Assembly (NCBI RefSeq): GCF_022539665.2 | Contig: NC_081337.1 | Coordinates: 9,462,679 to 9,526,678 of the forward strand | DNA length: 64,000 nt | Origin: Daphnia carinata | Lineage: Eukaryota > Arthropoda > Branchiopoda > Diplostraca > Daphniidae | Reading direction: 5' to 3' | Part shown: positions 1,845 to 40,024 of the stretch, piece after piece | Layout: every line of letters begins with the position of its first letter | Numbering within the stretch: position 1 is the stretch's first letter | Position numbers and translations under genes: made by a program | Notes under the pieces: model-generated | Told to the model about the DNA's origin: nothing | Seen by the model: only the letters and a program-made list of their open reading frames with translations | Database searches by the model: none

Positions 1845-1944
1845 TTGGTAGGGCATTGGCAGGTGGCGGAACTGGCGTCGGGGGCGGCGATGCATTTGGC
1901 TCCCGGTGGGCACTTGAGGTCGACGCAAGGATCTGGTTTGTCTG
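1845..1944 (-). CDS. Agrin shared exon 2, follistatin-like (FOLN) segment
   Basis: A 100-bp internal exon in the minus sense. It is preceded by a pyrimidine-rich acceptor ending CCAGCAG and followed by a strong donor AA|GTAAGT at 1844. It enters in phase 1 and leaves in phase 2. The translation starts near KPDPCVDLKCPPG and holds six cysteines or fewer spaced as in a follistatin N-terminal module (DPC..LKCPPGAKC, then ATCQCP). In agrin this is the position directly after the NtA domain and before the first Kazal domain, and the order here is the same. It is the only exon in the window that can accept all three upstream NtA cassettes, because each ends in phase 1. Further agrin exons (Kazal, laminin EGF, SEA, LG domains) must lie beyond the left edge. 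Identity as agrin rests mainly on the NtA domains upstream. Confidence 0.8.
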
Positions 1945-14107: not shown

Positions 14108-14735
14108 CTTTATTGAATGCCCGTAGTTGCTGCAAGTGGCGCAGACTGACGGACATCAAACTCGAGTTGAGACGTAGTCGAACGGGTTCAGCTGAATCGA
14201 TTGGTCGATGATCGTGAATGGGATCCATGGTTTCATCGTCATCGGATGACATCGGCTGATTGACGTGGCTGGCCAAGAAAATGCGCGTGTCGCGGAGCCG
14301 GACGCGACTCGGACAGATGCGCGGATCCTTGAGACCTTCGACCGGCACCAGACGTCCTTCCCACATGCGATCCAGTCCCTTGACGACCTTCTTGATTCGA
14401 ACTTTAATCGCCACATCGGCATCGCTTACAATAGCTTGATCATGCGACTGCTGAGTCAAATAGCGCTGGCAAAGATCGCGATCGTCGTCGACAGCTTCCC
14501 CTACGTCGACGTCCGTTTGACATGATTCAATCACTCCGGTGAACACCACCTGCGATCGATTCTGGCGCTCTTCCAGCGACCACTTTTCCAGCGGACAGGC
14601 CCAATCGGCCGCGTTGTTGCCACTTTCACCACTCGGCTGAATACCTCCCGTCGCTCTCGTCACATTCGCGCTCGCCATCCAAATCGCTAACCAGCACAGC
14701 CACCATTTCGGCCGTCTCATCACCACAGGCGCCAT
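14108..14735 (-). CDS. Agrin alternative first exon, cassette A (signal peptide + NtA domain)
   Basis: A single exon of 209 codons plus one base, ending at donor AAAG|GTAGTT (phase 1). The start is the ATG at 14735, in an AAAATGG context. Residues 1-29 look like a signal peptide (MAPVV.., then a WW-rich hydrophobic stretch). The rest matches the agrin N-terminal domain: a CP-L-E motif near residue 50, VVFTGVI (first strand), VKGL, DPRIC, then RDTRIFLA, and a closing helix with LNSSLM and SLRHL. Vertebrate agrin has DPLIC, GDTRIFF and LNSSLMRITLRNL at the same places, so this is the most canonical of the cassettes. NtA is known to anchor agrin to laminin in basement membrane. Two acidic inserts (near residues 75-85 and 160-168) are unusual. 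A TATA box lies 46-54 bp upstream of the ATG, so this is probably an independent promoter. Splices to 1944 or 1941. Confidence 0.85.
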
Positions 14736-14780
14736 TTTTACGACTGCAAGCCGGCGGCCAATAGACGACAACGACGATGA

Positions 14781-14789
14781 CTATTTATA
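14781..14789 (-). promoter_or_regulatory. TATA box for agrin cassette A
   Basis: On the minus strand the sequence reads TATAAATAG, a consensus TATA box, 46-54 bp upstream of the cassette A start codon. A start of transcription 25-30 bp downstream would leave a 5' leader of only about 15-25 nt. Position and match are seen; function is inferred. Confidence 0.55.
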
Positions 14790-15445
14790 AAACAAGGTGA
14801 TGGTATAGGGTCTCATCATCTCAATCCAAAGTGGCCGAGCGGTAGTAAAACGCGGAATATATAGATTATATAGCTGCAACACATTTTGAAGAAAAAAAAA
14901 AAAAAAAGGAAACGAAAGGAGTTTGCCGTCGAAGCTGTGGGGCTGACTGCTCACGCCAGAGATGGCGCACTTTCACGACCGAACTGGTGCCAACCGATTC
15001 CAATCCGAAAAGACGGCCAATAAGACGGACTGATTTACATGAAGGATTAACACCTACGAGCTATATAAGACGTCTTACTCTTTTCTCTTCTCTATTCTTC
15101 TATTCACCTTTACGGTAATAGCCAATCAGATTGCATAGTGCGCTGCGTCTCCCTTTCTGATTCTTTTTTGTTGTTGTTCTCAGTCTGAAACGAAATCCGT
15201 CCAATATACTAAGCTCGTGACTATGTATAATAGCCGGACAAAAGGATAATGCAGCTAGTATATTAGACAAGCAAATAAGACAAAAGAATCAGCGAGAGCC
15301 AAAGAGACGTCAGGTGTCTACGATTACATGGACGCAGGTCTTCCTTCATCTTGACGCGCGGTATATGAACAGGTGATTTTTCCTTTTTTTGTTTCTTTCG
15401 AGAAAAACAAAAATTGTGTTTAGACAAAGAATGCCTTTAACTTTT

Positions 15446-15466
15446 ACACACACACACACACACACC
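15446..15466. repeat. (AC)n microsatellite
   Basis: About ten AC dinucleotides in intronic DNA. Confidence 0.95.
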
Positions 15467-17074
15467 ATCTCATCTTGCCATCAGATTGATCCAGACGCCA
15501 GAGCTTTTTATCGATAACTTATGCAATACGCTTGCAAGGCCCTGTTTTCATTTTGTAAAGGCAGCAAAATGAGAAAAGAAAGATATTTTCTAACTGATTT
15601 GTTTCCATACAGATGATTCTTCTGCTTCAGTAATTTTTTTTTTTTTTTTTCGTTTAGTTTATCATTTTTCGGGACTGGTACAGTCGATTGAAGTATCAGT
15701 CACGCTTTCGAGGTGCGGCTCGGATTGTAAGCGTAACCGTTTTCGAATCAAAGAATCTCTCCCGCTTATTAATGAGACGATGAATATGAAAATGGAATAC
15801 TAATTATGATGTTGATAGCTTTCCGACGGAATGCCAAGTAGAGGTGGAGACAAACAAAATGTTAAAAGAAAAATCAAATGATTGCTAATCATAATCAAAC
15901 TCTTTCGATTACACTACGCTACCGAAAATGATGTTGATAGATTTTCAAATGAATCCCAAACAAAGCATATTGGATGCTACGCGCAAAAGATAAGGTAAAA
16001 GAATTTCGTTGAAGGCAACCAATGACAGAATGTCTCCATTTCAAATAACCGTGAAAACGACACGTACGATCTACGCAATGAAAAAAAAAATCAAACGGAC
16101 GCATAGAATCCCCCTCTCTTTAATTAGAGATTCCGGCAATGAAGTTAAGACGTCTGTGTTATCCTTCATGTTAGTTAGACCGTAGTGCCACAGCATATCT
16201 TAAAAAAAAAAAAAAAAAGATCGATCGAAAAAAAAAATTTTATCTACCACTGAAACGCTCGTTAATCTGAAAAAGGTCCCAAATCGGGAGTCGTTTCGGA
16301 TTGGAACGTGAACTCACGCAAGACGAACAGTCAGCCCTTTTTTTTTTTTCTTCTCTTCTTTCCTATCGCTCTGACGGGCCACTCCTTTCGTTTGAATTTC
16401 TCCAAAACGTATTTCGACAAACTTAATTAAAACAGACAAGACGAACCAACGGCGATTGTGTTCACGAATTCGGATTAGGAATAGATTCAAGTTTTGTCCT
16501 TCAGAGTGGTCCCGTCGAACCCAACCGACGAGATTTCCAATCACGCAAAACAGGCACGGTAAGAAAAAAATATCAATGGAGTGCACGTGAAAGAGACAAA
16601 GGATTTTTGTCTTTTACGCATCAATGAAACGAAACGATCGAGTTTAAGCAACTTTGCAATCAATCAGGCAGTAAAAGATTTGCATCACACGTGACGATGA
16701 AAACACGCACATTGGCGACGCAACAGGCGCGCGTGTGCGCACCGATGTTCCACGAAACAAACTGAACACAAAAACGCACATCGGCTGGGATGAAAAAGAA
16801 AACAAACACTTTTTTTTTCGATGCGGTTTACACAGCCACGAGCACAAAACAAACCATCAAGATGGAGAGCTCGGCGGGGATCTGCTCCGGACGGAGGGCA
16901 GTAGTTCACTGAAATCAACTCGGGCGGGTAGCACCGGTGAGACAAGAGAGGAAAACCCATAAAAAGAAGGGCCAGCAAAGCTTCAAAAACGCCGTGTATG
17001 CATATATATACTAAAGTCCCCCCACCATTATCTCAACCAACCAGAGAGCAAGGAAAATAAGAAGCAGATAGACC

Positions 17075-17075
17075 T

Positions 17076-17108
<33 letters not shown>
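17075..17108. repeat. (CT)n tract
   Basis: An almost pure TC dinucleotide tract with one TTT interruption, in intronic DNA. Confidence 0.9.
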
Positions 17109-17936
17109 TTCATTCCTTCGTCCTTTCGAAAAAGACACATACTCAACCACACCCTCCAGTCCCTTTTTGCCTGAGATGGGTCGATCTTTTATGGCCGTCG
17201 TCCAGCAGCGCCAGCGGAGCTCTCGGCGGAAAAAATAGATTGTAAAGACACGTTCGAAACAGATTTTTTTTTTTTTTCCCCACTGTGACTGTCGGCTAGG
17301 CTGCTCGAAAACAACGTCAACAACGGGAGCATCTACGACAGTGACTTGATAGCCGATAAAATATCAAAAATGTCCAGTATTCAGCGCACACAAGAAGTTG
17401 GTAACGGGCCAGCAGAAAAGGACAACGAGCGGACCACACGAGACGCCATCTGGCGCGCTATTCAAATGGGCATCACAACAAGTAATACAACAAACAAAAA
17501 ATATATATAAAATAAAATAAAGAAGTAGCGCTAGCATAGCTGAAGATTTCGACTAGAGCGCACGAAATGACCCCGGACATGTATGGAGGGACAAGAGGAG
17601 AAAGGGCAGAAGATGAGGCGATGCTGAGGGGGTCCGACCGATTGCATCCCGTGATAATAATTGGCGCGGGAAAGTAGTCAGGTTGATCAATGACCGGTTC
17701 GCGTGCGAGATGGGCCTCTAGTGCAAGACCCAAGACCCTATCAGACTTTAGCAGCGGGGTGGAAAACGAAAAAATAAAAATAAAAATGAAGGAACAAGTC
17801 AATATCAAGAACCTTCTCAGCTGATTCCATCATCAGCGCAGCGCCCGTTTTGTTTTTTGCCTTCTCCCTTCCCTTTTTTTCCCCCTTTTTAAATAGGAGG
17901 ATTGTTTTGTGGGAAGTTCTACAAACATTTGGAATT

Positions 17937-17938
<2 letters not shown>

Positions 17939-17971
<33 letters not shown>
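17939..17971. repeat. Poly-T run, 33 nt
   Basis: The longest homopolymer in the window. It is flanked by a pyrimidine-rich stretch and followed by TAG, so in plus sense it mimics a splice acceptor, but no exon follows it. Confidence 0.95.
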
Positions 17972-17973
<2 letters not shown>

Positions 17974-18650
17974 CCCAACCGAGATTTTCTATCCTGAAAA
18001 ATAAATCATCACACGCAAGTTTTGTAGGTTGCATTTGACTTCAACGGAACCGGGAGGTATGCCCCTGCATTCGACCGTTTGCTGCGAGGAGAGCGCACGC
18101 GGAAGAAAAAGAGCCAACAGAGCATTTGCATATAAGGAATCCCCTATTAAGTTCCAGTTCCATCCGGGATTGGTTTGGACAGAAAGTTCTTTTTTGTATT
18201 ATTAGTAGCCCTTGATTAGAGCCGCAGCCGCACACCAGATCACCCGGATGATGGGCGGTGGGAAAAACACGAAAAAAAAAACAAAACGAAGACGTCATTC
18301 ATTTTTGATTAACAAAACATTCCCTCGTTAATAGCTGAGAAAGAGAATAGGAAAAAAAAAAAAATAATAATAAAATAATAATAACTTTGTTAAACTCTCT
18401 TTCCGTGTACCTTTGAACGACGACGAAGGTCTACAGGACAACTCTCCTTCATTTTTCCGGCAGTAAGTTAACCGTTAGAGAGGGAAGAGCGAAATAGAAA
18501 AAGAAAAGAAGGTTTTTGGGGGTAACATTTCAATTGATTATCTTCTAATCTGAAGGGAACTCTGCCAATCCGAAAACGGTCAAGTCTATTAAGAGTAGAC
18601 AAGAAAGAGAGACACGCGTACAAAGAGATTTGTACGACGACCAGCAAATC

Positions 18651-18676
18651 TTTTTTTTTTTTTTTTTTTTTTTTTT
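18651..18676. repeat. Poly-T run, 26 nt
   Basis: An uninterrupted T run in intronic DNA between cassettes A and B. Confidence 0.95.
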
Positions 18677-21600
18677 CAAATGGTTTAAAGATAACTCTCT
18701 ACCTTACAACTGCATATAGAAAAAAAAAAAGAAGGGAAGAATGAGAAGAAAAGTGTTTCTCTAAATTCTTTCAAAGAGACTAAGAGGGGGAAAAAAAGGA
18801 ACGTCCGATAGTATTGGAAACATGGCACGATCGCCTCCCATTGATAGCGCACACGCCGCGTTCGGTTAAAATACATTCTTTTCGCCCCCTCTTCTTGCGC
18901 ATACGATGGAAGGGGGGCTAGTTATATAAACGCCGCAACGTAGCGCTTAGCAGTTCGACACTCGACCCGAGATACCAACTCCCACCTCAAAAAAGAGGCA
19001 AAAAAAAAAAAACGTAAAAGAAATAATAAAAAAAAAAATAAACGTGGCCACCTTTTGAAAAAAAAAAACCCGTGAATCAACGCTTACCCCCCTCTTTCTG
19101 CCCGTTTTTTTTTTCTTCTTCTTTTCCCTCACCACGTCTTTATAGGTGCCTTCAAAAAAGAAAAGTCGTTCCTTATCGGCTGTGGTTCTTCCCTTACCGG
19201 AGCCATTTGTGCCTTGACGTATTCCATTAGCAAGTTCATAACATGTAAAGGCTTTTTAGGGACAAAAAGAAGGTGGGTTCTAGTCTCCCCTACTAGCCAA
19301 CTAGGAGGGTAGTTCGTTACAAGGGCCCCATTTTCATGCAGATTGTTGGAAACAACCTGTTGGAATAGTCATCTCGCGCGCACGCTCGTTCAGTTTAACT
19401 CTGCAGTGTTGTCCGATTTTTTTTTCTTCTTCTTCTTCTAGTTTCAAAATGTAGGGAAGAAAAAAAAGACGATCGTCTTCTACCCTACAATTTTTGTTTC
19501 CTACTTGATTTTGTGTAAGCGTGTGTGGCTGTTTGTAAAGGGGGAGGGTGAGCGACGGACCTCCGCGTTCGCGCGATGGGCCGCTCAGATAAACGACCAC
19601 CATTTAACCAACTGAAGACCGCAATTTGTCTTGTGGTTAGGTCACGTCAGGTCACGAACATTTCTTCACGAATTCACCCCCCCCCCCCACTCCCCCAACA
19701 AAATAAAATTTCAAGTTTCTTTCTCTAGTGTGCCGCTCCCCATTTCGTACGGAGGTGGTGGGAATGGAATGCTCTTCCTTTGATCCGCGGTGACGGAGTC
19801 CTGATTTGCTGGGCCACTTTTTTTTTTTTCCTCCCTCAAACTATAAATAGCCGCAAAAGAGATGGATAGAATGAGTAGGGGGGTTCCTATTTTGAACCAG
19901 CTCAATCATGCAAAACAAGACTTAAGTTTTTAACTGACATGTTTCACTAGCTCGGTAATTTATCTCGGACGAGCCGTAGGTCCGCAGCCACAAAAGCTGA
20001 ACTCGCTACGTAAACAGCCGATCGATCGTCGTCTCATTTCAAAAAGAAGAAAAAAAAAAAAAAAAAAAAAATCAAATGCGCATCGCAGCGCAAAGGTCGA
20101 CAAAGGAAAAAAGGAATTTGAACGGTGACAACGGTGGCCAACCTTCAAGCGACGTGTTGTCTGTTTTGTTGTTTTACTCCCGTGGCCGTCTCTTTTGCCT
20201 GTAGCTGACGGTGATGGACTCGTGTTTGCGTTACGACGCAGCGCTATTCATCACTGTTGAAAGCCATTACGGAATTTTTCATCATCTTCCGCGGGCGACA
20301 GCAAACAACGAAAACAAAAAATGATATAGTCGAATGCGAGAAAACAACAGATTGGGTCCGACATTCTAAGCTTTTTAATGAACGCGAGGCCGCAAGTCGC
20401 AACAAAAAGGAGAACAACAAACGGAATAAAAATAAAAAATAAATAAATAAGATGTGAAAAGAGACAGACGGAAAGAATGGAAAAGATGATTTTCTCCTTT
20501 TGTGTTTCCAATCTCGAGCCATCCGTTTGTAACAATAACAGTAAGTCAGCTGTTAAAGTCATTCTGCGGCGAAAAGGAAAACAAGACGTAGTAGAAGAAA
20601 GAGCTCATAATTCATTTGGCGCCTGGCGCTTATTGGGATCGGTCGCCTAATAAGGAAATCGTGAGCGTGAGTGCGGCAAAGAAACGCGCACGCGGATACG
20701 CAGTCACACAAACACACATGCAGATGAGACACGAACAAAATGTCAGTAGAAAGACAAACGAAACCAGTAGGCGAACTTTTTCTTTTCTTTTCTTTTTTTT
20801 TTTTATTGCTGGCCCCTCCCAAAGACGGTTCAGTTCAATCTAAATCTCATGCGTCAGGCCATCCCAGTCTATTACTTATCTATGTAAATTTTATTTTTCC
20901 GTGTGTGTGTGGATAGCTAAAAGTAGAAATAGACAAGAACCCCACTCGAAAATGACGCTCGATGATAATGTCGTCGATGTGTGACTGCAGTTTAATACGC
21001 CTCCCGCAAGTTATTTTGCATATCATAAAAAAAAACATACACCGGTTTCTCTTATTAAGACTCGATATTCATCCTCATCCATTTTAGATTTATAGAGTCT
21101 CGTTTCTTGATTTTTCCTTCTCTGTTTTTTTTTTTATATGGGCACAAGCTCAATTAAATCAACGAAGACACCAAAGATAAAGAGCAACACGTTACACACA
21201 CCTCAAAAACAAGTCTATATAGGTGAGGTCGGAACTCTTGCTTATTTTTTTTTCCCAAACTAATATTCGATAGCCTCAATGGCACGAGTTGAGACAAGAA
21301 TTTCGAATTATTGATTGCTGCACGACTCGGGATACCTGAATGACGATACGCGTAGGTTCATGATTTATTCAGCCTCTTCCCATATAGATAGTATTAGCAT
21401 CGAACGCCTATGAAACGTAACCTTTCGTGCGTGAATGAGGACATCGGTACAACCTTGAAGAAGACATTTTCCTAGATGAGATAGATATTACTATTTCGGG
21501 TTGAGTGCTATTTATTACATAATTTATGACAAGTTGATTTTTGTTTTATAGAAAGGGATTCGCTGCCTGATGAAAGACTTCCCTTTCGAAACTTCCTCTT

Positions 21601-22744
21601 TTGAATATTTGACTGAACACAGAAATAATGTATTACACAAAAAAAAAAGTGCGTGTGTCGGGAGCGGAACCCGGCAGCTCGGTCGGTCAATCAAGCATTC
21701 TTAAATAGATAAGAATTTTCATACAAAACAAGGAAACAAAAATCCAAAAAATAGAAATGTGAAAAAAAAAAGGACGTGTAGTTGCTGCTGGTATAGCGCA
21801 GAGTAACGGAAAACAATGTCCAAAATGGAATGATGATGATGAATCAAAACGCAACCGTATGTCTTTGATGAAGAGGAAATAGTCCGCCATCTACCAGCGG
21901 GGGGAAACGGGGAGGGAAGGGAGATCAAATATTTTTTTTTTTTGTTTCTCTTTCCTTTTGGACGCCACTGTGCTGAACAACGACGCTGACAAGCAGGGAT
22001 ATGGTAAGAGTTAGTCCATCAGACCATCCATTTGCATACGGATGCCCAGTGATGCATTAGTAGCCTACGTCTAACTGTTTGTGCTCATCCTACTCTTTTT
22101 CTCTACACGGGTTTCCTTTTTTTTTTTTTTCTCCCCCTTTTAGTTCAGCGTACGTTCAGGGAGAAAGAAATGACTCGACAGAGAAAGCTACAACGCACAC
22201 CCACGCCCTTTAATGTTTACTCCAGCACGGAACGGGGAGGAGGGCAAAGAAAAAAGTTTAAAAATACAAAACAAAACAAAAAAATCGAGGTCTATGTAGC
22301 GATTTAGAAAGAAAAAAAAAGAAAAATGAAATGTAAGAAAAAGGACGACAGATAACAATAGCCGTAATTTCGTGATATTATACAGCTGCGTTCTCTGTAC
22401 TCTTCCCATTCGTTTAGAGAACAAAATATATAAAAGAGCCATTAGATACAGATTCATCAAGAGTCGAGTCAAATCCAAACGATCCGCCTCTTTCGTGACG
22501 TCTCCATTTAACGTAGAGATGGAAAAGGTGGAAAACTATCCGGCTTCTCCTCACACGTATAACCTTTCTCTGCTTTCCCTTCTCTTATTTTCTCGCCCTG
22601 TCTCTCTCACACACACACACACATATAAAACACATTGTCCGATAGGAATCGATTTCAATCACGTCGTGAACTAACCCTCCCACCTCCCTTTTTGTTTCTC
22701 CCTCCGTTGTAAAAACTTATCATCCGACGATGATAAGAGCTTAC

Positions 22745-23432
22745 CTGATGACGGCGACCCGGGTGAGGTGTGGATCAGTTTCAGATTGCGTAGGGTGATA
22801 CGCAACGGCGCCGAGACCAGGTGAAGTGTCTGATTGAGTGGGTGAATCTGGACGAGAAAGAGGAGGACGTCGTGAATGCGGATGCGGAATTGGGGCACGC
22901 ACGAATTTTCGCGCGCGTCAAATAAATCGTGCAAGATCAACGTCGGTTTGATAAGTGGGCTGTTGGTCGTGTCGGCGGCGGGCAAAGGATCTAGCGCATT
23001 CGATTGGCCGACCAACGACGGCTGGTTCTGGTTCCGCGGCGCCAAAAAGCTGACGACCGTCCAGTCCGATACATTCGATAGCGAGCGGATCACTCGGCGC
23101 ATAGAGACGCGGACCGTGCCGCGTTCACGGTCAATGTCTTCGACGGACGCGGTGAATACCAACTGGCAAAATCGGAACCATTCTTCTAGTAGAACGCTAC
23201 CCACTTGACCGCCACAACTTTTCGCCAATTTGGAACGCGTTCGACGATTGACATTCGACGTTTTGCGACGTCGGTTCACCGACGGACGCTTGCGTTTAAG
23301 TCCCGTCGCTAAGCGTCGCTCGCCAACAGCATCGTAGACACTTGTCGATACAGCCGCAGATGTAGAGTTTAAAGCAGCACTGACACACTCACTAGCCGCA
23401 AGGCCAATCAGCATCCAGATTAGCCAGCGCAT
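22745..23432 (-). CDS. Agrin alternative first exon, cassette B (signal peptide + basic linker + NtA-like domain)
   Basis: A single exon of 229 codons plus one base, ending at donor TCAG|GTAAGC (phase 1, as in the other cassettes). The start is the ATG at 23432; an upstream in-frame TTG is not needed. The first 19 residues (MRWLIWMLIGLAASECVSA) form a clear signal peptide. Residues about 44-72 are a strongly basic linker with KRKR, RRRK and RRTR clusters. The NtA-like part follows: SCGG near residue 75, QLVFTASVEDI (first strand), VRVSMRRVIRSL, a loop with a Cys (SCVPQFRIR), and the closing segment APLRITLRNLKL, which matches the end of vertebrate NtA (RITLRNLEE). The middle is more divergent than cassette A and the GDTRIF motif is not conserved (HDVLLFLV). 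Expected role is an alternative, secreted agrin N-terminus with different matrix binding. Confidence 0.78.
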
Positions 23433-23571
23433 GTTTTGTTTCAAATTTCCCCCCTTGTTTTTTGGAAAAAAAAATGGCGCGCAATATCAAAACCCCCTTC
23501 GATCACAATAGTATTTTGATTTTTTCAGCGCAAAAAAAAATGTGTTTGTTTCCTCTTCTCGTTTTTCGCCG

Positions 23572-23579
23572 CTTATAAA
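23572..23579 (-). promoter_or_regulatory. Possible TATA element upstream of cassette B
   Basis: The minus strand reads TATAAG about 140 bp upstream of the cassette B start codon. It is a weak match in AT-rich DNA, so the call is tentative. Confidence 0.25.
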
Positions 23580-23780
23580 GAAAAATACGTTGCTGGTTTA
23601 TTGCCAGCCAGGTAGGTACTGACTCCTGAAACCTGAGCGTAGGCCGTCTTTATGCAGCCCCTTTGGCCACCATTCGCTTTTTTTTTCATCCCCAACATGG
23701 ACTAAAAACCAGTCCCCCTTCATACCGTAGGCTTATACTGTTCTATTCGCCTACCTACTTTAGCTCTCTCTTTTTCTCTC

Positions 23781-23783
<3 letters not shown>

Positions 23784-23816
<33 letters not shown>
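23784..23816. repeat. (AC)n microsatellite
   Basis: About sixteen AC dinucleotides, the longest dinucleotide array in the window. Confidence 0.95.
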
Positions 23817-23817
<1 letters not shown>

Positions 23818-26800
23818 CGAACGTATACACTCCCACATATGCAGAAGGTCTTGTAAATACGTTGGATTGTACAGGGCCAAAAAGGTGATACACTGGTACT
23901 GCTAGTGGCTCACCGTTGGATGGGGCATACATAGCGGCAGAAAGCGGCGGCAGAAGCGCAACGACGGGAGGTAAATATAATAGGCAGAAAGGAGGATCGT
24001 TTCGAACGCTGGAATGGAGGAAAAAAAAATAAATAAAAAGAGGGAGAGATACAGGAGGGAGAAAAAAAATATGAAAAATACTATCACTGGGAATCAACAA
24101 GTAACCAACGGGAGGCAGTCATTGCTCCTCAAGGATCCTTCAAAGTCTATTTACCGATACATCCACCCCCCGAGTATATCTATTATAACCGCGCGTGAAT
24201 ATAAACGAAGAGAAACTCGAAGAGTAGCCGAGTAGGCAGCGGGAGAAATAAAACAAATGAAGGTACTCTATAACTGAGAAAAAAAAAAACGGTTACAATG
24301 TACCGACAGACAAGAGGGTGAAAACAAAAGAATACCAATCCCGACGTACTTGAAATCGGAACCGGAATAAATTGTAAAGACAAACAAATAAACAAAAAAA
24401 AAATCAAATATTTTTTGTAATGGATGAGCGATTCGAAAAAGATTTTCTTCCTTTATTTTCATGTTTTTCCTATTGTCCGTCTCCCCCCCCCCTCCTCTCC
24501 ATCCTAGATTTTGGTTTTTAACGTATAATATACAGAGTGGCGTCTGTGTGTTGAAAAATTCGAGAACAGATGAGAGATTCAAAGATATTGTGAAAAACAG
24601 TGGGGCGGAATGCTCAATCGGACTACAACTAGAAAAGAACAAAACAAACAAGTCGAGAAGAATGACCTTAATTGGAAAACTGTCAAACTGCGATGAGGCT
24701 ATTTCCCTTACGTGTCCCCCCACGTTTGAGGCGCTGCTGGACCTGACTGGCCGTCGGTGCCGATATTTTGTCAGTCAGAACCGTCAGCGGATCTTTTTTT
24801 TTTTTTTTTTTTTTGAATTTCTCGGTCGAATGCTGCATAACGCGGGGCCCCCTAGCGCAATCTGATGTGTCATTCGAGAGAGAAATAATTTTATTCTTTA
24901 AAAAAAAAAAAAAAAAAAAACTAAATGACGACACCCTCGGACATGTTTCCCCCCGCTTTTTTCATATTTTCTGTCAAAGAAGTTGCTGAAGAAATGGAAG
25001 AAAAAAAAAAACGTGCGCTAAGAAACGTAAGATGAGGGGGAGACTTCATCTCGCAGCATGCGATAGAAAAAAAAAAGAAGAAGAAGAGAAATAACTCTTT
25101 GAAGAAGAAGAAAAAGTCTCAAATAAAATTATATACGACATTTGAGCCGATCGGGCACTAGGCGACGTGCTGTGTGTCGCATTGAAGTGCCAATGGCCCT
25201 GAATAGAGACGGATTAGCCGGACCATTTTTGGATGCCAACAAATATTTTTTTTTTTTTTTTTTTTTCTCCTTTTCGTGTTCTTCATATTCATTTTTTTCT
25301 ATTTCATTTCAACTGGAGCCCATAGACTATCTTTTCATTCGTCCCTTTTTTTTTTTTTTTTCCACTGTAAACTTATACGACGGAGACATATAGACACCGA
25401 GGTACGGGCGACAAGAGACACGCACATACGGGGTCTGGAATTTCAACTTGAATATCAAGCTGAATCCCGCCAGTAAATGGAAGAAAATACTCGTTTTGCT
25501 CCTTTTAAAACCTCCCACCCGCTTCGTTTATTTTTTTTTTCTCTGTCTCTTTAAAAGCGAACAAGAAGCTAAAGGAAATAGGATTCGTCATCAAATCAAA
25601 ATGTTTCAACAACAACAAAGACACGCTCGTTTCTCTCACTGTCGCTGGACGTCATTCAAAGTCTCATAAAAACTCTTTCGTCAACTGCACGTCGTTTCGT
25701 TTTCGCCTATCAATTCTTTCAATTTTCTTTGGTTTTTACATTGTCCTTTCGAAAGAAAGAAAAAGTCAAAGTGATGAGGATAACAATGGGGGAAAAAAAA
25801 AACATTTTTTCGTAGCCATAGGCTGAGAATATGCAGGAAGAGTCATTAGGTAAAATGATGTGCACGGATTGCTAGTGGTATTTGAAAAATGTCAACGGGT
25901 CACTGGCCGCTGTCAATGGCCGGGAACGGCTGATGATGTGATCAGATATGACGAAAGCTGCCAGATGAAGCCAACCAAAGCCTCGCACATCGTTAGCACA
26001 AAAACCCTAAGAATTGTTGCATGTTGATGCTCTCTGTTCTTTCGATTGTGAATAGTTGCACGCAAGTCTGGCGAAATCATTGGGCCAAAGTAAAAAAAAG
26101 GAAAGACAGCCCATCCTTCTTTCTTCTTTTTGTTTCCCTGTTCCCCCATCTTTGAAAAACACGGCAAACTCAGCGCTGTGTAGGGAAAAAAATGTCCTTT
26201 GGTTTTCGACTTTTAATAAGAAATTTCTGAATAGAAATGAAACAAAAAAGCGAAAGAAGAGAGGACTCTATTGATGCCCAATTCGTTTCCATTGTCTACA
26301 AAACTACCAGTTGGTCACAACGACAGATAGAACAACAACAACAAGAGGACGAGAGAGAAGCTTTAGGAATAGACGGATCGAGGCGACGGGGCGGACGGAC
26401 CCGAATGGATGGACTGTGATTGATTTCAATCGTGTATAGAAAACACAAGAGAAACCGGTGGGGAAAAGAAAAAAGAAGCATCCTGCAGACGCGCGCGGAC
26501 ATGGAGATGGAAATCTATTGCCCCCTCCGACTGACGAAGACGAAGAGGATGGCCCCTCGGTTCACAAGAAACTTTTTTTTTTTTTTCAAAGTGGAGAGCG
26601 CGCATAGATCCCCGACCTCAAGCAAGCAGTTTCGTCGTTTGAAACCATTCTTCCGATCATTTTCTCAGCGGAGAAAATAAAAAAAAAAAAAAGACAAAAC
26701 GGAAAGGTAAAAACAGAGTGGGGGGAATGCAAATGAGTCAATAAAAACGTCATTACAACTCGAGTTCACCAAAACAGAGGGGGAGAAGAAAACAAATAAA

Positions 26801-26842
26801 AGAAACGAAACACACAAGCACACACCCAAAATTCTCTCCCTG

Positions 26843-26862
26843 CCCCCCCCCCCCCCCCCCCC
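26843..26862. repeat. Poly-C run, 20 nt
   Basis: An uninterrupted C run, unusually long for C/G. Several shorter C or G runs occur in the same region. Confidence 0.95.
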
Positions 26863-29842: not shown

Positions 29843-29869
29843 AAAAAAAAAAAAAAAAAAAAAAAAAAA
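29843..29869. repeat. Poly-A run, 27 nt
   Basis: An uninterrupted A run. I see no retroelement body or target-site duplication around it. Confidence 0.95.
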
Positions 29870-32800
29870 GGCGATAGAGATAGACATAACGAAAAGCACC
29901 TTAAGGCAGCTATGATTATAAGAGTCCGCCGCCCAATCAGTACACCCCATACCGTGCAAGTTTGAACAACAACATCAACAACAACAAAATATTCTCCACT
30001 TGGGTGTTGGTGGTATATACCCGAACAAGCAAAAGGAAGAAAGAAAACATTAAATTTTTTTTTTCCCCTCTAGACCCAAGAAGAAGTCAACGCCGTTTCA
30101 TTAATCTTCAACTGACAGATGGGCATTTGTTTTCGTTAGCGCTTGCCCTTTCGATCTATCGACTGGGAGTCTCTCTTTTTTTGAAACCATCTTTCTTGTG
30201 CGCGTGGTGTTTATTTATTTGCTAGCCTCAAATAACGCGTCGTGCCTACATGATACGAACAAGACGAAAAAAAAAATTGGATAGCTACGTCTAGGGCGAC
30301 CCGAGATGTACAATAATTTCTCCCGATTCTGGTGCCACACGACATACCCAGAGATAAATGCTGAAGGTGACTAACAGCCCTCGGGAGGTGGTGGACTGCT
30401 AGTTCACTCTCATTTCTCTACACTTCTGCCTCAACGGCGAACGAAAAAAAAAGGGGGGAATTCAAATGTTCGTTTACATATTCAGTACATAGAGAAATGT
30501 AACACGACATCGACGACGACGCGGGACATTGCGTGACTCGAAAAGACCCTACCCAAAAAATCACAGTTTTCATTTTTATTTTGTTTCCTTTTTTTCAAGA
30601 GCTTCCAAAACCATCCAAGTGGGTCGCGCCAGGGAGGGCCGGCATAGGCTTTTAAATATCGGTCATTTTGATTACCATCGAGAAAAATATGAAGAGACTA
30701 TAAGCAAGAAGAGGGGAAAACAAAATAAAAAGGGAAAAAACACACCCTGCAGTCCTATAAAGGCCTAACAGCAGCTGCCCCTTGGATGTCGAGTGGAACG
30801 TGATGATTGTTCATGATAACACGTGGGTCCTTCTGCGTGTAAGTTGCTGCTGACCAGTTGCTTACACACATACCTTAAGTCTTTTTGGTGTTGTCTGAAT
30901 ATAGTCAGACCCAAATGGCGGAAAGGGAATAAAGAAAAACAAAAATCCCCTTTTCGGGAGAACACAAAAATAAAGTAAAAAGAAGAAACGGACATGTGTG
31001 ACCGAGCCTAAATTCGAGACATTTTCAGCTCACAAAAACATGATTTCCCCTCCTTTTTTTTTTTTTTTTTTTGGTCGAATAAAAAGGAAGAAAAAAACTG
31101 GAAGGAGGGCTAACTAATACGAGGTTTCTTTTGACACGTGGTTGTCAATTTGATTCAATCTGTTACACAGAGGCCGCATTTTCAAGGGAACAGTTCAAAG
31201 GAATGCCTTTTTTTTCTCTCTCTTTCTCTCTCACTGACGTTTTCTTTCTCTTCCTGGATTATTTTTTTTTCTGTCCTGCCCACACAGACATTTTCTCTCC
31301 CAGCTCTACAAGTTTCATTTCATTTAACAGACACGAGGGGTTACATCGCGTGTGACCAGACCACCACATCACCGTCTCGACACACTGCTACAAAAAAATT
31401 CCCTACGTGTTTTGCCCAACTCGGAGACCCGAATCAATTTCACCTCAAAAATCTTCTTTAATTCGGACAAAAAAAAAAGGGGAGGGAGATTTAGGGCGTC
31501 TTCATTTGCAAGGATAATTCAACCAAATAGAGTAGTACTGAAATGTATACATCTATAAATGTACAACAACAAAAAAAAAAGAGAGAATGTGCCACGCGCG
31601 CGTTATTATTATTTTTTTTTTTTTTGCCTCCCCTTTCCATCGCCCACTCTTTTAATACCCTCAATTGATGCAATCGTAATAATAATACATCACTAGTGGC
31701 AACAAGCATCGGTGAAGGTTGTACGAGAGTCAAAGAATGTAGCAGAGAGAGAGAGAGAGAAAAAGAAAACAAAAATCTATGGAGGTCTTTCGCTCTTTCC
31801 TACCCGACGCTTAAGCCCGCGCACTCCGTTATTAGCGTTCCAGGACGACGTCTAGTAGAAATCGCCCATCCTGGAGGGCGAAGCAATACCCAAAAAAAAA
31901 AAAAAAACCTTTCAATTTTTTGTGCGTGTTGTTCTTCGTCGCTTTAAGAAAAAAAAAATTTTGTTTTCAAAGAAAAAAAAATCTGAGAGAAAGACATGGA
32001 ACAAAAAAAAAAAATTCAAAATGTTTCGTATACACTTAATTCTTGATGGATTTACATTCCCCGAAAAAAAACGACCAAAAATGAGGGGGAATAATTTTGC
32101 GGCTTTTCTTCAGTTTTTGAGCATCTAAAAGCAGAAAATGTTGCCAGAAAAGGAAAAAATGCTTGACACCGACGGATGGTCAATTTGCACCGTCTGTATT
32201 TGGACAAAAAAAAAAGGAAAAAGGGAGGAAAAGATGCTTCTTCTTCTTCGGTGTCTTGTATGTGCGTGTGTGTGCATTAAATCTGTTACTGCGAATTTAT
32301 ATGGCCGTGCTAGAAGGTGGCGGCCAAATGAAGAGAAGCCAATCTCTCTTTTCCTATCTGTCTTGTATATTAAAAAGCCCATTCGAGAACGATATGATAA
32401 TGGTTCGTAAAAAAACATAAAACTAAAGAAAAAAAAAATCAAGAAAAGAATCTGCACGCCAAGTTGACTCATCACCAACATCGCGCACATAAGACAACAA
32501 AACAAAGCACGAAAGCAAACGCCGATTTCGCTATACAACATCGTTCATATTCAAATGAGATTCTTTTTTGTTTTCAAAGAGGTGCGGATTAAGTCACTCG
32601 CGCCGCTTGCAGTGCCACATAACTAAAAAAAAAAAAAATACACACCTGACAACGAGGCAATCGAGGAGGAGTTGTGGTTTTTAACGACGGACGGGATTTC
32701 GATTGGGCGCCGCCAGACATCCTTTCGAATTTTTTCGATCTCAGATTACCGTACGCCTCAGCAAAAGAGAGGGGAAAAAAAAATGCGACGTAGGAGAATG

Positions 32801-35800
32801 TTTGGGTGGGGTCACGTAAACGTCGGTTGCGCGCGTGCGCAGCGGCATTGTTACATTTGGCATAGCGCAAAGGCATCTACCATTTTTCACGGCGAATATC
32901 AAAAACAGTAAACGAATTGTTGAAAAAACAAAAGATAAGAACAATAACAGATGTGAAAAAAAGGGAAATAAAATCGGGACGGCCATCAACCTGTCGATCG
33001 AGCTTGAAAAATCGACAAGAAAAAAGAAAAAAAACGAACGACGGGCCGTAAAACAACTAGCGAGTCTCTCCGCTTTGCTTTATTGGCAACGTGATACAGA
33101 TACAGTCCAATGGCCTGTTTGTCTTCGTGTCCGTACCGTTTTGTTTTATTGACTCTCAATGTTTTTCTTTCGTCTCCCTTTCTTTACCTTCCTCAAACAT
33201 CAACGCATTCTCTCCCTCCGGTTTGTCAGCGGTCGTGAATCTGTTTTTCACGATCGCTCCGTCGTTCCCGTCGAGTGGACGGCCGAGTACGATAGTCCCG
33301 TAAAACATGTGCACGCCCATCCACATATGGGCTGTAACAAAGATACATTTATTTCCTCGGGTTTGTTTTTTTTTCTTGAAAACTAACAAAAAGGGTCAAC
33401 GTCGTGTGGCAGTTTTCAAAAGATACGAGAATGGAAGGAAAGAGACAACACGGCTATATGGCCTGCCAAAGAAGTTGTGTGTTCTAATTCAGCGCTAGGA
33501 CTCTTGACAGACCTCACAAGATGCAAAAGGCAGTTGAAATGACTAGCACAAGACATAGCCCCAAAAGATGCAAATGTTCAAAATGCCTATGTTTTCCCTT
33601 TCTGTTCCAGGTGAGCTAAGCTCATAACACATTTTTGAGGGGAGGGGGTGAGAACGAAAAGGAAAAAAAAAAAAAAAGACGGGCACTAGTCGGACATGAA
33701 CGGAGTAACCCTCAAGCTAAAGGCTATAGATAACATTCAACAGAGAGGGTTAAATAACAAAACAAGTCAAAAAAAGAATCATAAAACTTCTTGACAAGCC
33801 CTTCACCCCTTTTCTTCTTCTCGTTTGCCTGGCACGTTGAGACATCCCGCTCTCTTTTACCTCCTCATCTCGTCAAGGAATTAGTCTGGCAGTGAACCAA
33901 CAACTCCACCAATCTCACAAACAGACAAATGGGTGACGTGTTTCCTTCTTTCTCTCTGAGAGACTTATTCAGTGGACCCGTCATTAGACCAAGTAAGGAG
34001 AGGAGACGAATAGTTGGGGGAAAAGAAACATTTTTTGTTTCTTTCAAGGAGAAACAAAAAAAAAGTTTTGGGGGGGAGTGGATGCTGAAAGCTTAACAAT
34101 AATTTCACGTCACGTCTATACCGTCTTAGTCGTCATCTCTGAGATCGTACTCCATTTCTCTAAAGCAAAGGGCACGTTATAACTCACGAAGTCACAACGT
34201 CCATTGTTTGTTTTCTCTCTAGTGATTTCTACGGTAGGCCAACGAGTGTGGAGAAAAAAGCCGATGGAACGGGGTCATCTGATCAAAAAAAAAAAACGAC
34301 CTCCCTGATCTGATGTTAAGATTAAGACCTTGGTGGGTAACACAGTAAGAACGTACATACAACGTTTCGTCTACACTGCATTTTTGGTCGAATGCCCAAT
34401 TCTCAGTAAACTGTATGGCCAAATTGGGTGGGAAAAAAATAAGCACAGACGGTAGCAAAACGAGAGACAAAGATGTCGGCCATGCGGGTTGCCATTACAT
34501 TTAGGTCTGTACGACAGAAAGAATTGAAAACCAGATTGGCCACTTACCATTTGGTGGTGTCTCGAGATCGCCAGATTTGGGATGTTCGACGGCAGTTCTT
34601 GTTTCCCTGGAATCAATCCAGTCTGCTGCACGTTGACTCACTAACGAACGACGGACATGGCATCACACCTTTCTCGGGTGATAACAGATCAACAAGTTTC
34701 TTTTCCAAAAGGAAACGAGACACAGTCGTGTAAGGTTTTTTTTAGTTTAATTAATTCATCTCAAACACCACTGCAGATTGCCAAGCACGCATCTGATGGA
34801 TGACGATTCGAATGTTGCCAATACATCATTTCACGAAGCCAAATTAAGAATAACTAATCGTTTCTAAAGTATCTCGTCGCGTGTCGTCTTGCGGTATTGC
34901 CAATTCATCATATTTCGTAAGAGACACCCACCGCTGCCAGTTGCCAAATGGTCGACAGCTACTCGTCGTGAAATTTACATTCAAATTTAGATAGACGGTG
35001 GAAATGCAGTTACAGGTTATATTCACAGCTGTAAAAACGGGCTGTTGGTTTTATTAGTTCACGTCAGCGCTGCATATTACTAGACTCGTTTGTTTTTATG
35101 TGCCACATTCCAAGCGATTCCAACGAGGTTCTCGGTTCCTACTTAACGTCGCTCCCGCCTTCTGTTGGAATGTCGAATGATCGATGCCCAATACTCGGTA
35201 AATCAGTGGTTCTGGCTGCTTTGGGTGCCTATGAAGAATCACACACAAGGCAGGCAGAGAAACAGGGAAAAAGAAAAATAATTTTTCTTTTTTTCTTTCT
35301 GACTAGGAAAAAAGAAAAGAAAATAGAGTGTCCCACCCCCTGTTAAGTTGTGTTGGCCATTGGGGTTTTGCTTTGGGTGTGTAGTGTACCACCATGCAAG
35401 AAACTAAAAAAAATTTTTTGTTTTCTTTCTTTCTTTTTTTTTTTGGTCTCTCTTTCCTACGGCTCTTACCTCTTTTAAAAAATTTATTTTTTTTTTTTAG
35501 ATGATTGATCAAGGATGTAATATTGGAGGAGGGATGATGATTTGCCCTGATTGTCCAGGGCGTCCCATCATCTAAAGACCTGATTACCATTGATCGAGAA
35601 CAACGATGGTCCGTTTCGTCTTTGGAAAAAAAAAAAAAATAGGAAAGATTCCGGTTGTAAAACGAAAAAGATGTTTATGACACCACTACCAAAAATGAAA
35701 TCGCCCATATCCCAAAACGTTCAGGTTGTAAAATGAAAGCGATTGAACGTGACTTTTTCCCCCCTCGGAGGAAATAGCTAACAAAACTATAGGAGACCTG

Positions 35801-38800
35801 ATGCCGTAGAAGGTGTTCACATCAATTCAGTCTGAAGAAGAATAAGTAGACCAAGGTACTTTGATTCAAGGTAGCCTTGGCTTTGTCGATAGCACTCATC
35901 TTAATAGAGACCTATCGACAGCTTAATGAGACAGATGAATGAAGCGATTCAATCAGAAAGAAACGTCAGTCTGGAAAGGCATAGCAAGAAGAAGGTTTTT
36001 TTTTAAAAACACCCGTGTGTAAGAGAGAGATAAAAAAAAGGGAAAAAACTCCACCCTTTACGATGAGAAACAGGACGAAAAGAGGCTTATAGTAAAAAAA
36101 AAAAAACGGAAATTTCTTGTTGGAGCCAATGTTTTGTGACGCCATGCGTAAGCACATTGTTCTATCTCACACGTGGGAAAAAGAAAAGAACCTCAGTCCT
36201 TCATTAAATTCCCTGACACTCACTGACGAAGCCGTTTGGAATTGAAAAAAAAAAGCCCAACATCAGGGGACGAGTTCATCTTGGCCAGCGTGTTATGTAC
36301 GAGCCCTTCTTCGATTGTATAGGCGGCTTTTTTTCGATAGTGAAGACGCAACCCCTCCTTGAGACTAATGAGTCCCGATGGAGCTCGTTGATTGAAAAGG
36401 AATAAAAAAAAAAAAAAAAGAAAACTTTTCGCTCTGCGTGAGAGAAATGATCTCCGATAAACAAAAAAACCTTTTTCTTTTTGAACGAACTGAGGGAAAC
36501 AGCGACGGGTGGTTGAACGATTTCGTGGCCCGATATGGGTTTATTGTTTGTTGTCAGTCGAGTCGGGACTTTGTTGCTTCTACGATATTAAAAGACCCTT
36601 TTTTTCAGAATTTTTTGGGGAAAATTTCTGATAGAATTCCTAATAAAGGTGGCTGATTAGCCGAGAGTTAATTCCCTTTACTGGGATACAATGAACGATA
36701 GAATTACATGGCTGCATTGCGTTGGTAACAAAATTCTTGGTGACAGCGGTAAAACGAGATATTTGTCAAGGTATGGTTGCCGCAAAGTCTTACAAACAAG
36801 GGGCGAAACCCAAATTCGCCTCTTCTCTGTAAGCTTCAACTGAGCCATCAGTGCCAAGTCGACAGGTGATGCCTGTCATCATGGAAATCATCGTCACGGA
36901 CGATCAGCTGCTTGGCAGGATATTTTGTCGGTTGGGATTGGGGAAAAAGAAGACCCATAGAAAAACAACTCCGGTTGCTGGAAAAAAATCCCAATCGAAT
37001 TTGAGAGGCACAACAAGGCGAGAGAAATAAAAACAACAACACGACACGCATTTTGGGGTTGTGTGTTTTCAAAACGGCCACGTTTCGATGGTGGTAAGCG
37101 ATAAAGTAGCGACCGGCGTACTCCAGTCGATCACTCGGATGAATAAGTTCAACCTCATCCGTTATAAGAAGAAAGACAATCACCAACAATAGCCGACTGG
37201 GTCTGTCGACGGTGGATTTTGATTACGATCTCTCCAGCTCAATAGCAAAATAGCACCGAAAATGAATAGAAGACCTGATTGGGATCGTCGGATATTTTTT
37301 TCAAAGGCACGATCAGCCGGCAAACCCAAGAATGCATATTTATTTGAAAATAAATTTCAAAGAAGGACGACAATTTCCCACAAACTAGTCAGCCTAGGTT
37401 ATAGTAAACAAAATTGTGACACGAGGCTATTTTTATCAAGGAAATGGTGAAGCACATAAGGGAAAATGAACAGTCGCTGAGAGGTCAAATAGTCTCTTAC
37501 TCGTTATTCAGTCGCCCGCAGGCTCAATTTTTAATTACTTTCAGTCGGAATAGGTGTCGGTTGCTTGGATTTATTTATTTATTCAGGTTCCCTTTTCTCC
37601 CTGTTTTATTGGCTTCTTCGAATTCTTTTTTTTTCCCTTCTCAAAAGGATTTCTCCTGATGCATGGCCTGCTAGAAAACATACGCCCGAAATATACACGC
37701 ACGCTATACGTGTTGTGACCGCGTCTGTGTATTTACTGGCGTAGGACGACGGCGCGGTGCGCGGCGGTCGCCGTGATCCGCCGTGATTCCGATCATAAAA
37801 GACGATTTACGGATAGAGCACCTGGGTGGGGTGAGCGCAACAGGCAACGAGCCGTCGTTTGAATATATCGTGCGGGATAGAAAAGCAAAGAAACGCAAAG
37901 AAGAAAAAACAAAATATACACTGCGACCTTTCACGTCCGGAGCGCATTATTTTCTTCCCCGCCAGTTGCTAAGTATTTGAATTACGACGGGAGCTTACAC
38001 GATGGGACAATGGCAAGCTAACCGATTCCCGTTTCAATAAACAGGAATTTTCGAGGCAAAAAGAAAAGAGCTCTATACGGATTTATTATTTTTTTTTATT
38101 AGAATACCGTTTCTCATTTTTTGTTCAAAAAAAAAAAAAACGTTTGGGAAATAGTTTTACACCTGAGAAGGTTGCAGCTGATATGTCGGAGCTGTCAAGC
38201 CTCTTTTTCTTACTCGTGTGTGTGTGCCTCTATATAGAACGTATGGGAAGTCGTAAAAATGATCGGAGACCGTAACTCTCTGCCTCGTTTTCTCGGCCAA
38301 GGCGTTCGCAAACCAACGATCCGACCTTTTCGACTTAAGTGGCGAGAGAGATATACAGACGGGTTAGGAATATTCGTCACTCGGCCAGGTACTTGCCGCG
38401 ATATCCTCGCCATAAAATAGAAGAAAGGTGTCTCTGATTGTGTTCGACAACACAACAAAAGAATAATGGCCAAAGAATTGGACGCACAGCTGAATTGAGA
38501 AATCGTACTCGCAGAAATACCAACTTTGCGCCGTGGAACAATACGCATTGCGCCTCTCGTTGCAAAAGAAAGCGTCATAAAAGACGTTCAAAAAAAAAAA
38601 GGAAAGAAAGAGATCTAGAAAATAATAAAGTAGAGGGCGATCAAAGGGAGAACGACAAGAAAAGAAATAGTCGTTCCTCTTTTTTTCACTTCGTTTTTTT
38701 TTTTTACGATATTCCCGTCTACCGCTGAATGCCACTTATTCGTGCAGGGTTATTCCATTTCTCGAACTTTAAGTTCATTCCTATCCCCTTATTCGAGAAC

Positions 38801-39433
38801 CCCGCAGTGTAAGGTGAAATATATTGAGACATTCGATATATAAATAAAACCCTCTTTTCTTCGTGTAAAAAGAAAAAAAAAAAGGGGGCCCACAAAAATT
38901 GAAATAAATTCGTTCAAACGGCGGCTGAGGAAAAAAAGAGGGACCACCCGTAACGTGTCACGAACCATTTTTTTGGCATAAAGAAAAAGAAACGACGTAA
39001 GGTAAAGAAGGAACTACAAAAAAGGAATGAACATAGAGTAAGCGGTTGAAAGAGGACGAATAAGGTCTGATGTAGCCGCCAAATGAAACGCGGTTAATTG
39101 AAGCCCTGGAACAAATCACAGGTATCTTGGCGTTGGCAACGCATGTAAATGGAATCCCGCTGCTGTTATTCGATGTCGTGGCGATAGACCCCGGTAAATG
39201 GGAGTGCCAATATAAAAATTATCCGAAAAATTTCAGTCACGGAACATAGCCATGTAGAGACAAGAATAAGGCGCAAATTTAACCCCGAATCGTGACTAGA
39301 CAGGTTCTCGATTGCATAATTTGATTAGGATGCATAACTCTTGGAATGGGAGAGCCGAGCAAGAGGAGCGATTTCTAACACATATTCAATTAACAAAATA
39401 AAATTAAAAAATAGGTGGATGGGGGGCACTTAC

Positions 39434-40024
39434 TCAGCGTTAAAATCCGAAGTTTCATCAAGATGAATTTGGTGAGCTGGATGTGAGTTTGAAGAAGGAC
39501 GGAAAAACCGTAGACTCGGGCGAAAAAGACCCGCGAATCCCGTTGCCTCAATTCGGTAGGTCCGTATGCAAAGCAGCCGACTTGAGAACGTTGAGGCAGC
39601 AGCCAGCGGGTGGTATCCTTTTTCGTATCCGACAGCGGGATGAAAGACAACGATGACGATTCAAACGGCTGATTGGCCAATAAAGTGATATCGGGATTCT
39701 TCCATACGCCTTTGAATAGCGATTTGATTCGGATAACGATGAATCGTCCATCGTCGGTTACATTTCCAACCGTTCCGCTGAAAATGAAGTCGTTGTCATT
39801 CAACAACTCGTTCAAATGCCGTTCGTACTGTCGTTGAAAAAAAACAAACAGATTAATTTATGGAGAAAATAGAAAATAAATAAATTTGTATAACTGACCT
39901 GTTCACCATTAGGACAGAAGAAACCTGTTGCGTGACCGTAGCTAATTAGCAAGAAAAGAACTAACCACACTAACCCGAATATCTGTGAATAACCTGTAGC
40001 TATCTTCCTCGGCATTGCCGTCAT
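39434..40024 (-). CDS. Agrin alternative first exons, cassette C (signal peptide + NtA-like domain, two exons)
   Basis: Two coding exons: 40024-39899 (42 codons, donor CAG|GTCAGT, phase 0) and 39827-39434 (131 codons plus one base, donor CTGA|GTAAGT, phase 1). The 71-bp intron has a good acceptor (caacgacag). The start ATG at 40024 opens a signal peptide: a basic start, then a hydrophobic core LVWLVLFLLISYGHATG. The mature end carries FCPNGEQ, equivalent to the CP motif of cassette A, then DFIFSGTVGNV, FIVIRIKSLFKG, GCFAYGP, RDSRVFFARV and a closing KLRILTL. These line up with the NtA strands (VVLTGTV, VRVWRYLKG, DPLIC, GDTRIFF, RITLRNL). Same final phase as A and B, so it can join the same shared exon some 37 kb away. 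This is the farthest upstream complete start and the only one with an intron inside the cassette. Confidence 0.8.

Follow-up and report, generated by a model that had tools for sequence, protein, structure and literature searches.

Tandem candidate NtA-type first exons upstream of a single agrin body in Daphnia carinata

The agrin gene of the water flea Daphnia carinata is predicted to possess a tandem set of alternative, paralogous first exons, each encoding a head of the NtA type. The analysis concerns the minus-strand N-terminal region of this gene, contained in a stretch of 64,000 nt (contig NC_081337.1, positions 9,462,679 to 9,526,678) that is referred to here as the window and whose numbering is used for all positions. 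Three 5′ cassettes, C1, C2 and C3, lie upstream of one agrin body (Table 1). We estimate the probability that at least C1 and C2 both feed agrin at roughly 0.6, with the splicing of both predicted from the DNA. C1 is very probably an agrin first exon and C2 is probably another, while the role of C3, either a third head or a separate gene for a secreted NtA-only protein, is disputed. That all three cassettes feed agrin is given somewhat less than even odds. In the proposed mechanism, each cassette would have a promoter of its own, and its phase-1 donor would be spliced to a common follistatin exon over a long first intron of 12.2 kb (C1), 20.8 kb (C2) or 37.5 kb (C3). Promoter choice would determine the first exon and, with it, the NtA-type head carried by the proteoglycan, and this head would in turn set the anchoring partner.

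The layout of the region is that of genes with tandem first exons, i.e., several paralogous 5′ cassettes on the same strand and in compatible phase, upstream of one constant part. The original prediction of three same-strand cassettes, here placed on the minus strand, each with its own ATG and a phase-1 GT donor, proved exact in its coordinates: the last exonic bases at 14108, 22745 and 39434 each lie one base into a codon and are followed by GT. The open frames before these donors comprise, besides one further base each, 209 (C1), 229 (C2) and 131 (C3 exon 2) codons, and the ATGs of C1, C2 and C3 are preceded by in-frame stops at distances of 15, 18 and 2 codons, respectively. All three cassettes described as first exons are present, but C3 is split over two coding exons separated by a 71-base intron, with an identical joining in P0050 and P0051. 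The phase-1 acceptor that had been predicted at 1941/1944 of a follistatin-like exon was read there as well. Because this acceptor is CAGCAG, the constant exon can start at 1944 or 1941, both in phase 1. With this tandem acceptor (1942–1944, minus strand), the junction could contain one Ala more or less, whichever head is joined.

Downstream of the cassettes, one agrin body was found, which starts at 1944/1941 and extends past the end of the window. Ten body peptides were scanned, yielding follistatin/Kazal domains in six, a laminin-EGF domain in one and EGF domains above the cut-off in two, and three clusters of laminin-G matches lie further downstream. The domain series of agrin (follistatin/Kazal, laminin-EGF, EGF and laminin-G) is thereby represented, as read from separate exons and peptides. 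A search of the genome with a 286-residue piece of the body returned 13 matches, i.e., the piece itself, five repeats within the same gene and seven weak, partial matches elsewhere. Other follistatin exon ends that were read off, e.g., Gly-Lys and Ser-Lys, also fit phase 1, and this phase is therefore taken as usual in the agrin gene.

The NtA kinship of C1 and C2 is firmly supported, and C3 is NtA-like by profile comparison. Of the NtA-like domain that the original prediction assigned to each cassette, that of C1 is recognized by Pfam and that of C2 by its predicted fold, as the top four matches of the C2 structure model in the PDB are all agrin NtA. C2 and C3 exon 2 from the window have no Pfam NtA match of their own; within their families, weak matches to this domain occur in three of 24 members for C2 (best 0.016) and in four of seven for C3 (best 0.0033). 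Structure prediction had been proposed as a check on each cassette. For C2, it produced a model that resembles agrin NtA crystals best, but the C3 model is unusable, with a mean predicted local distance difference test score of 41, and the fold search started from it was uninformative. In a profile search against PDB sequences, agrin was found with C1 (2.1e-6), with C2 only at an E of 0.5, and was not found with C3. The link between the families comes from profile–profile comparison with 40 column-shuffled controls per family pair. C2 and C3 scored 43.5 against a shuffle maximum of 18.9 (probability 91%), C1 and C3 scored 37.7 against 23.7 (81%), and C1 and C2 scored 33.2 against 23.9 (56%). 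A genomic profile search, extended beyond the window by 70 kb downstream and 30 kb upstream, revealed no fourth NtA cassette and no significant link from cassette to cassette (best E 1.2).

The homologues listed amount to 26 for C1, 23 for C2 and eight for C3, D. carinata's own protein being among the last. D. magna, D. sinensis, D. galeata and D. carinata are the organisms named among them. The NCBI D. carinata protein LOC130690252 is 100% identical to C3 exon 2, and D. magna shares 94% (C2) and 95% (C3) identity with the window. The ends of the cassettes are conserved too, as the alignable part of the wider C1, C2 and C3 families stops at the donor. For C1, a boundary Gly (exon-final G followed by GT) occurs in all 24 homologues with a complete 3′ end (26 examined; P0023 and P0026 lack that end). 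For C2, the boundary Gly is present in all 22 unspliced homologues (23 examined, P0027 being a spliced model), and it is followed by Lys or Glu in 18 of these 22, as expected from GTRAG. The three unspliced C3 homologues (eight examined, five being spliced models) all have Ser-Lys-Cys at the boundary, as expected from an exon-final A followed by GTAAGTGC. Trees of the homologues (23 of the 26 for C1 and 21 of the 23 for C2, plus the window) contain diverse sets. As frames and donors are kept across homologues, the cassettes are constrained coding exons. Each of C1, C2 and C3 has a single match in the genome, without second copies. Related loci were confirmed neither in viral_contigs (C1 alignment) nor in genome_contigs (C2 alignment), which fits the viral and prokaryotic content of these collections.

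Conservation does not extend to all residues that matter for laminin binding in vertebrates, where Leu142 and Val149 of helix H3 serve this purpose (PMC3439447). In an alignment made by eye, the Leu142 position is Leu in 24 of 25 C1 homologues, in all 23 C2 homologues and in five of eight C3 homologues, the other three having Ser. The Val149 position is taken by Thr, Ser or Asn in 24 of 25 C1 homologues, P0023 with its divergent end being the exception, and by Pro (22) or Ala (one) in the 23 C2 homologues. Since Val149 is not kept, vertebrate-type laminin binding cannot be taken for granted, particularly for C2, and the term laminin-binding head used in the original prediction claims more than the evidence supports. 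The partners may differ from head to head.

Table 1. Cassettes, constant exon and candidate alternative features of the agrin N-terminal region, in window positions.
Feature	Position	Strand	Description
Cassette C1	14735-14108	minus	ATG, signal-peptide-like stretch, NtA domain, phase-1 donor after 14108; Pfam NtA 5.8e-11, 26 homologues, single copy
Cassette C2	23432-22745	minus	ATG, signal-peptide-like stretch, basic linker, NtA fold (predicted); phase-1 donor after 22745
Cassette C3, exon 1	40024-39899	minus	ATG, signal-peptide-like stretch, first Cys; phase-0 end; open frame
Cassette C3, exon 2	39827-39434	minus	NtA-like domain, phase-1 donor after 39434; 8 homologues, profile match to C1 and C2
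Alternative C3 3′ exon	34864..34958	minus	Short tail and stop in NCBI models of D. carinata and D. magna, the tails of P0050 and P0051 mapping here; ATTAAA at 34751
Candidate fourth, NtA-less start	1945..2077	minus	ATG 2077, one hydrophobic span, runs straight into constant exon; open frame
Agrin first constant exon	1845..1944	minus	First half of follistatin domain; acceptor 1944 or 1941, phase 1

Splicing of the cassettes to agrin is favored by their strand, order, phase and kinship, and by the lack of other recognizable coding content: in the surrounding 40 kb, 11 of the 81 non-cassette open reading frames of at least 90 codons were scanned, and these contained no Pfam domain. Inspection by eye of the Cys-rich minus-strand frames between the cassettes gave no follistatin-like stretch and no follistatin exons belonging to C2 or C3 themselves. 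Among the matches listed, with only approximately one quarter of proteins being named, no protein carries the name D. carinata for C1 (proteins of about 115–366 residues) or for C2 (126–401 residues), and one does for C3. The lack of short D. carinata proteins for C1 and C2 is indirect evidence, compatible with both cassettes belonging to a longer protein but no proof of it. Several points weigh against the splicing of the cassettes to agrin. In none of the 57 homologous proteins is the cassette followed by a follistatin domain. The C1 donor in the window, GTAGTT, is non-consensus, and the Lys expected from a GTAAG donor is found in three of 24 C1 homologues. In the NCBI models of both D. carinata and D. 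magna, the exon joined to C3 is that at 34958, which carries a stop at 34866, and other named C3 models likewise end early. Similarly, the D. magna model P0027 (APZ42_021355) ends C2 as a short protein, although its contig is only 4,388 bases long. Lastly, introns of 12–37 kb seem long for a genome of 108 Mb. Of the original proposal of one agrin gene with three heads, the single body, the three paralogous upstream NtA-type exons and the fitting phases were borne out, but the place of C3 is disputed by the NCBI models.

The dispute concerns the 3′ end of C3, for which four annotation sets give four different solutions from one shared donor. Besides 34958, the next exon is placed at 37292 (D. 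magna OUZ56), 39103 (D. sinensis) or 39338 (D. galeata). The tail of the OUZ56 model changes frame, and those of D. sinensis and D. galeata are in frame over short matches. Such varied partners would be expected if the true partner is distant, or if the gene soon ends in a little-constrained tail. In a rival reading, to which we give just short of an even chance, C1, with or without C2, is the agrin head and C3 is a neighboring gene, originating from a duplicated agrin first exon and encoding a small secreted NtA-only protein. The last exon of this gene would be that at 34958, followed by polyadenylation near 34.7 kb. LOC130690252 and its D. magna counterpart LOC116919469 indeed share both the donor and this next exon, and an ATTAAA is present at 34751. 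However, the D. carinata and D. magna tails differ in frame beyond 11 common residues, the three other annotations pick the partners mentioned above, and the pyrimidine tract of the 34958 acceptor is poor.

A more far-reaching alternative, in which C1 alone belongs to agrin and C2 and C3 each form an NtA-only gene of their own, is considered unlikely. The short tail of P0027 is 92% identical to window positions 21616-21551, as this alternative would have it, but the contig of this model is too short to reach the agrin body, and intron DNA of D. carinata and D. magna is so similar that short tails match anyway. Moreover, no short NCBI protein of D. carinata is present among the C2 matches listed. 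The idea that C2 and C3 are functionless, decaying duplicates, to which the missing Pfam NtA matches of the window's own copies might point, is rejected as highly improbable, given that open frames and donors are kept over 23 (C2) and eight (C3) homologues, that identity to D. magna reaches 94 and 95%, and that the predicted fold of C2 is that of NtA.

Besides the three cassettes, a candidate start without NtA is found directly at the constant exon. The frame of this exon is open upstream to 2146, and the sequence from ATG 2077 contains, before the first follistatin half, a hydrophobic span with a 19-residue mean hydropathy of 1.88. A synonymous-codon model was trained on the cassettes and the first constant exon, with the tested 2077 stretch excluded. 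The score of the 2077 frame was reached by 0.2% of 9,186 intronic stop-free stretches, a figure that is no true probability as these stretches overlap. An earlier coding model scored this start as negative, with 91% of 8,409 null stretches scoring at or above it; since it scored C1, C2 and C3 as negative too, it could not discriminate. The frame from ATG 2077 could give an NtA-less, membrane-anchored agrin, as in vertebrates. The full picture of a cladoceran agrin with four interchangeable N-termini, i.e., one membrane-anchored form without NtA next to three NtA-type heads that diverged long ago and bind different partners in the matrix, is regarded as somewhat unlikely.

As to the surrounding DNA, a 273-codon open frame (40456-41274, plus strand) lies opposite and upstream of C3; it has no Pfam domain and is probably non-coding or due to chance. 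Unlike the 40 kb around the cassettes, the region of 42.5–63.6 kb holds compact neighbors, namely genes for a Ras-type GTPase (judged to be Miro-like), a protein kinase, a PAF67/eIF3 subunit, a tubulin and a protein with a RanBP zinc finger and a weak match to RING. Also on the minus strand, in the vicinity of agrin, is a perlecan-like gene (L009:8383-9843; G000:C7:9529285-9532738, corresponding to approximately 66.6–73.8 kb in window numbering and thus outside the window). It has laminin domain IV, laminin-EGF and laminin-G, and its best PDB match is the basement-membrane heparan sulfate proteoglycan core protein. No tandem repeats with a score of at least 80 and no Rfam match were found within the window.

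Alternative N-termini are not new for agrin, as two sources describe alternative first exons for an NtA-containing secreted form and a type-II transmembrane form in vertebrates (PMC2874008; PMC1939731). In both vertebrates and, as predicted, Daphnia, alternative first exons set the N-terminus of one body, the NtA domain has the same fold, and an NtA-less hydrophobic start is possibly shared as well. Whereas vertebrate agrin has one NtA head, Daphnia agrin would have two or three NtA-type heads, which are long diverged and have not kept Val149. In addition, the vertebrate NtA-less start lies on a spliced exon, whereas that of Daphnia would extend the constant exon. Within the arthropods, the chelicerate sDscam genes combine tandem 5′ cassettes that have their own promoters with one constant part, and sDscam-beta6 has only two cassettes (PMC4835542). 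The Daphnia gene is likewise an arthropod gene in which 5′ cassettes with individual starts are arrayed in tandem ahead of one constant part. However, sDscam cassettes are similar immunoglobulin exons of a cell-adhesion protein and were proven by RNA-seq, 5′ rapid amplification of cDNA ends and promoter assays, whereas the Daphnia cassettes are highly divergent and their use is predicted from the DNA. The same source describes variable first exons with their own promoters and a shared constant part for the clustered protocadherins of vertebrates (PMC4835542). The parallel with protocadherins drawn in the original prediction holds for this layout of variable first exons ahead of a shared constant part, but the Daphnia cassettes are only three in number and very divergent from each other. 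Clustered protocadherins have many variable exons, which are similar and encode whole ectodomains, whereas the Daphnia exons encode a small head domain only. Several NtA heads in one agrin gene would therefore be a new form of a known alternative-first-exon arrangement. Neither Daphnia agrin nor an agrin gene with multiple NtA exons is described among the literature matches listed, and no literature mention of the gene identifiers was found.

Of the function of invertebrate agrin, "practically nothing" is known in the words of one source, which also reports agrin to be absent from two Drosophila genomes checked (PMC2874008). For C. elegans agrin, cDNA work found no NtA (PMC1939731), unlike a supplementary legend in which a C. 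elegans NtA is listed (PMC2874008). Should the prediction be true, an arthropod with several conserved NtA heads would offer a natural experiment on the binding partners of NtA, and the choice of anchor by first exon would not be restricted to vertebrates. If C3 instead encodes a free NtA protein, the NtA domain would occur outside agrin, for which we know of no description and for which none is present among the literature matches listed. Finally, if the four N-termini are real, the promoter used would decide whether one and the same proteoglycan goes to the cell surface or to one of several matrices, and the vertebrate pair of NtA and transmembrane forms would represent a broader scheme in its simplest version.

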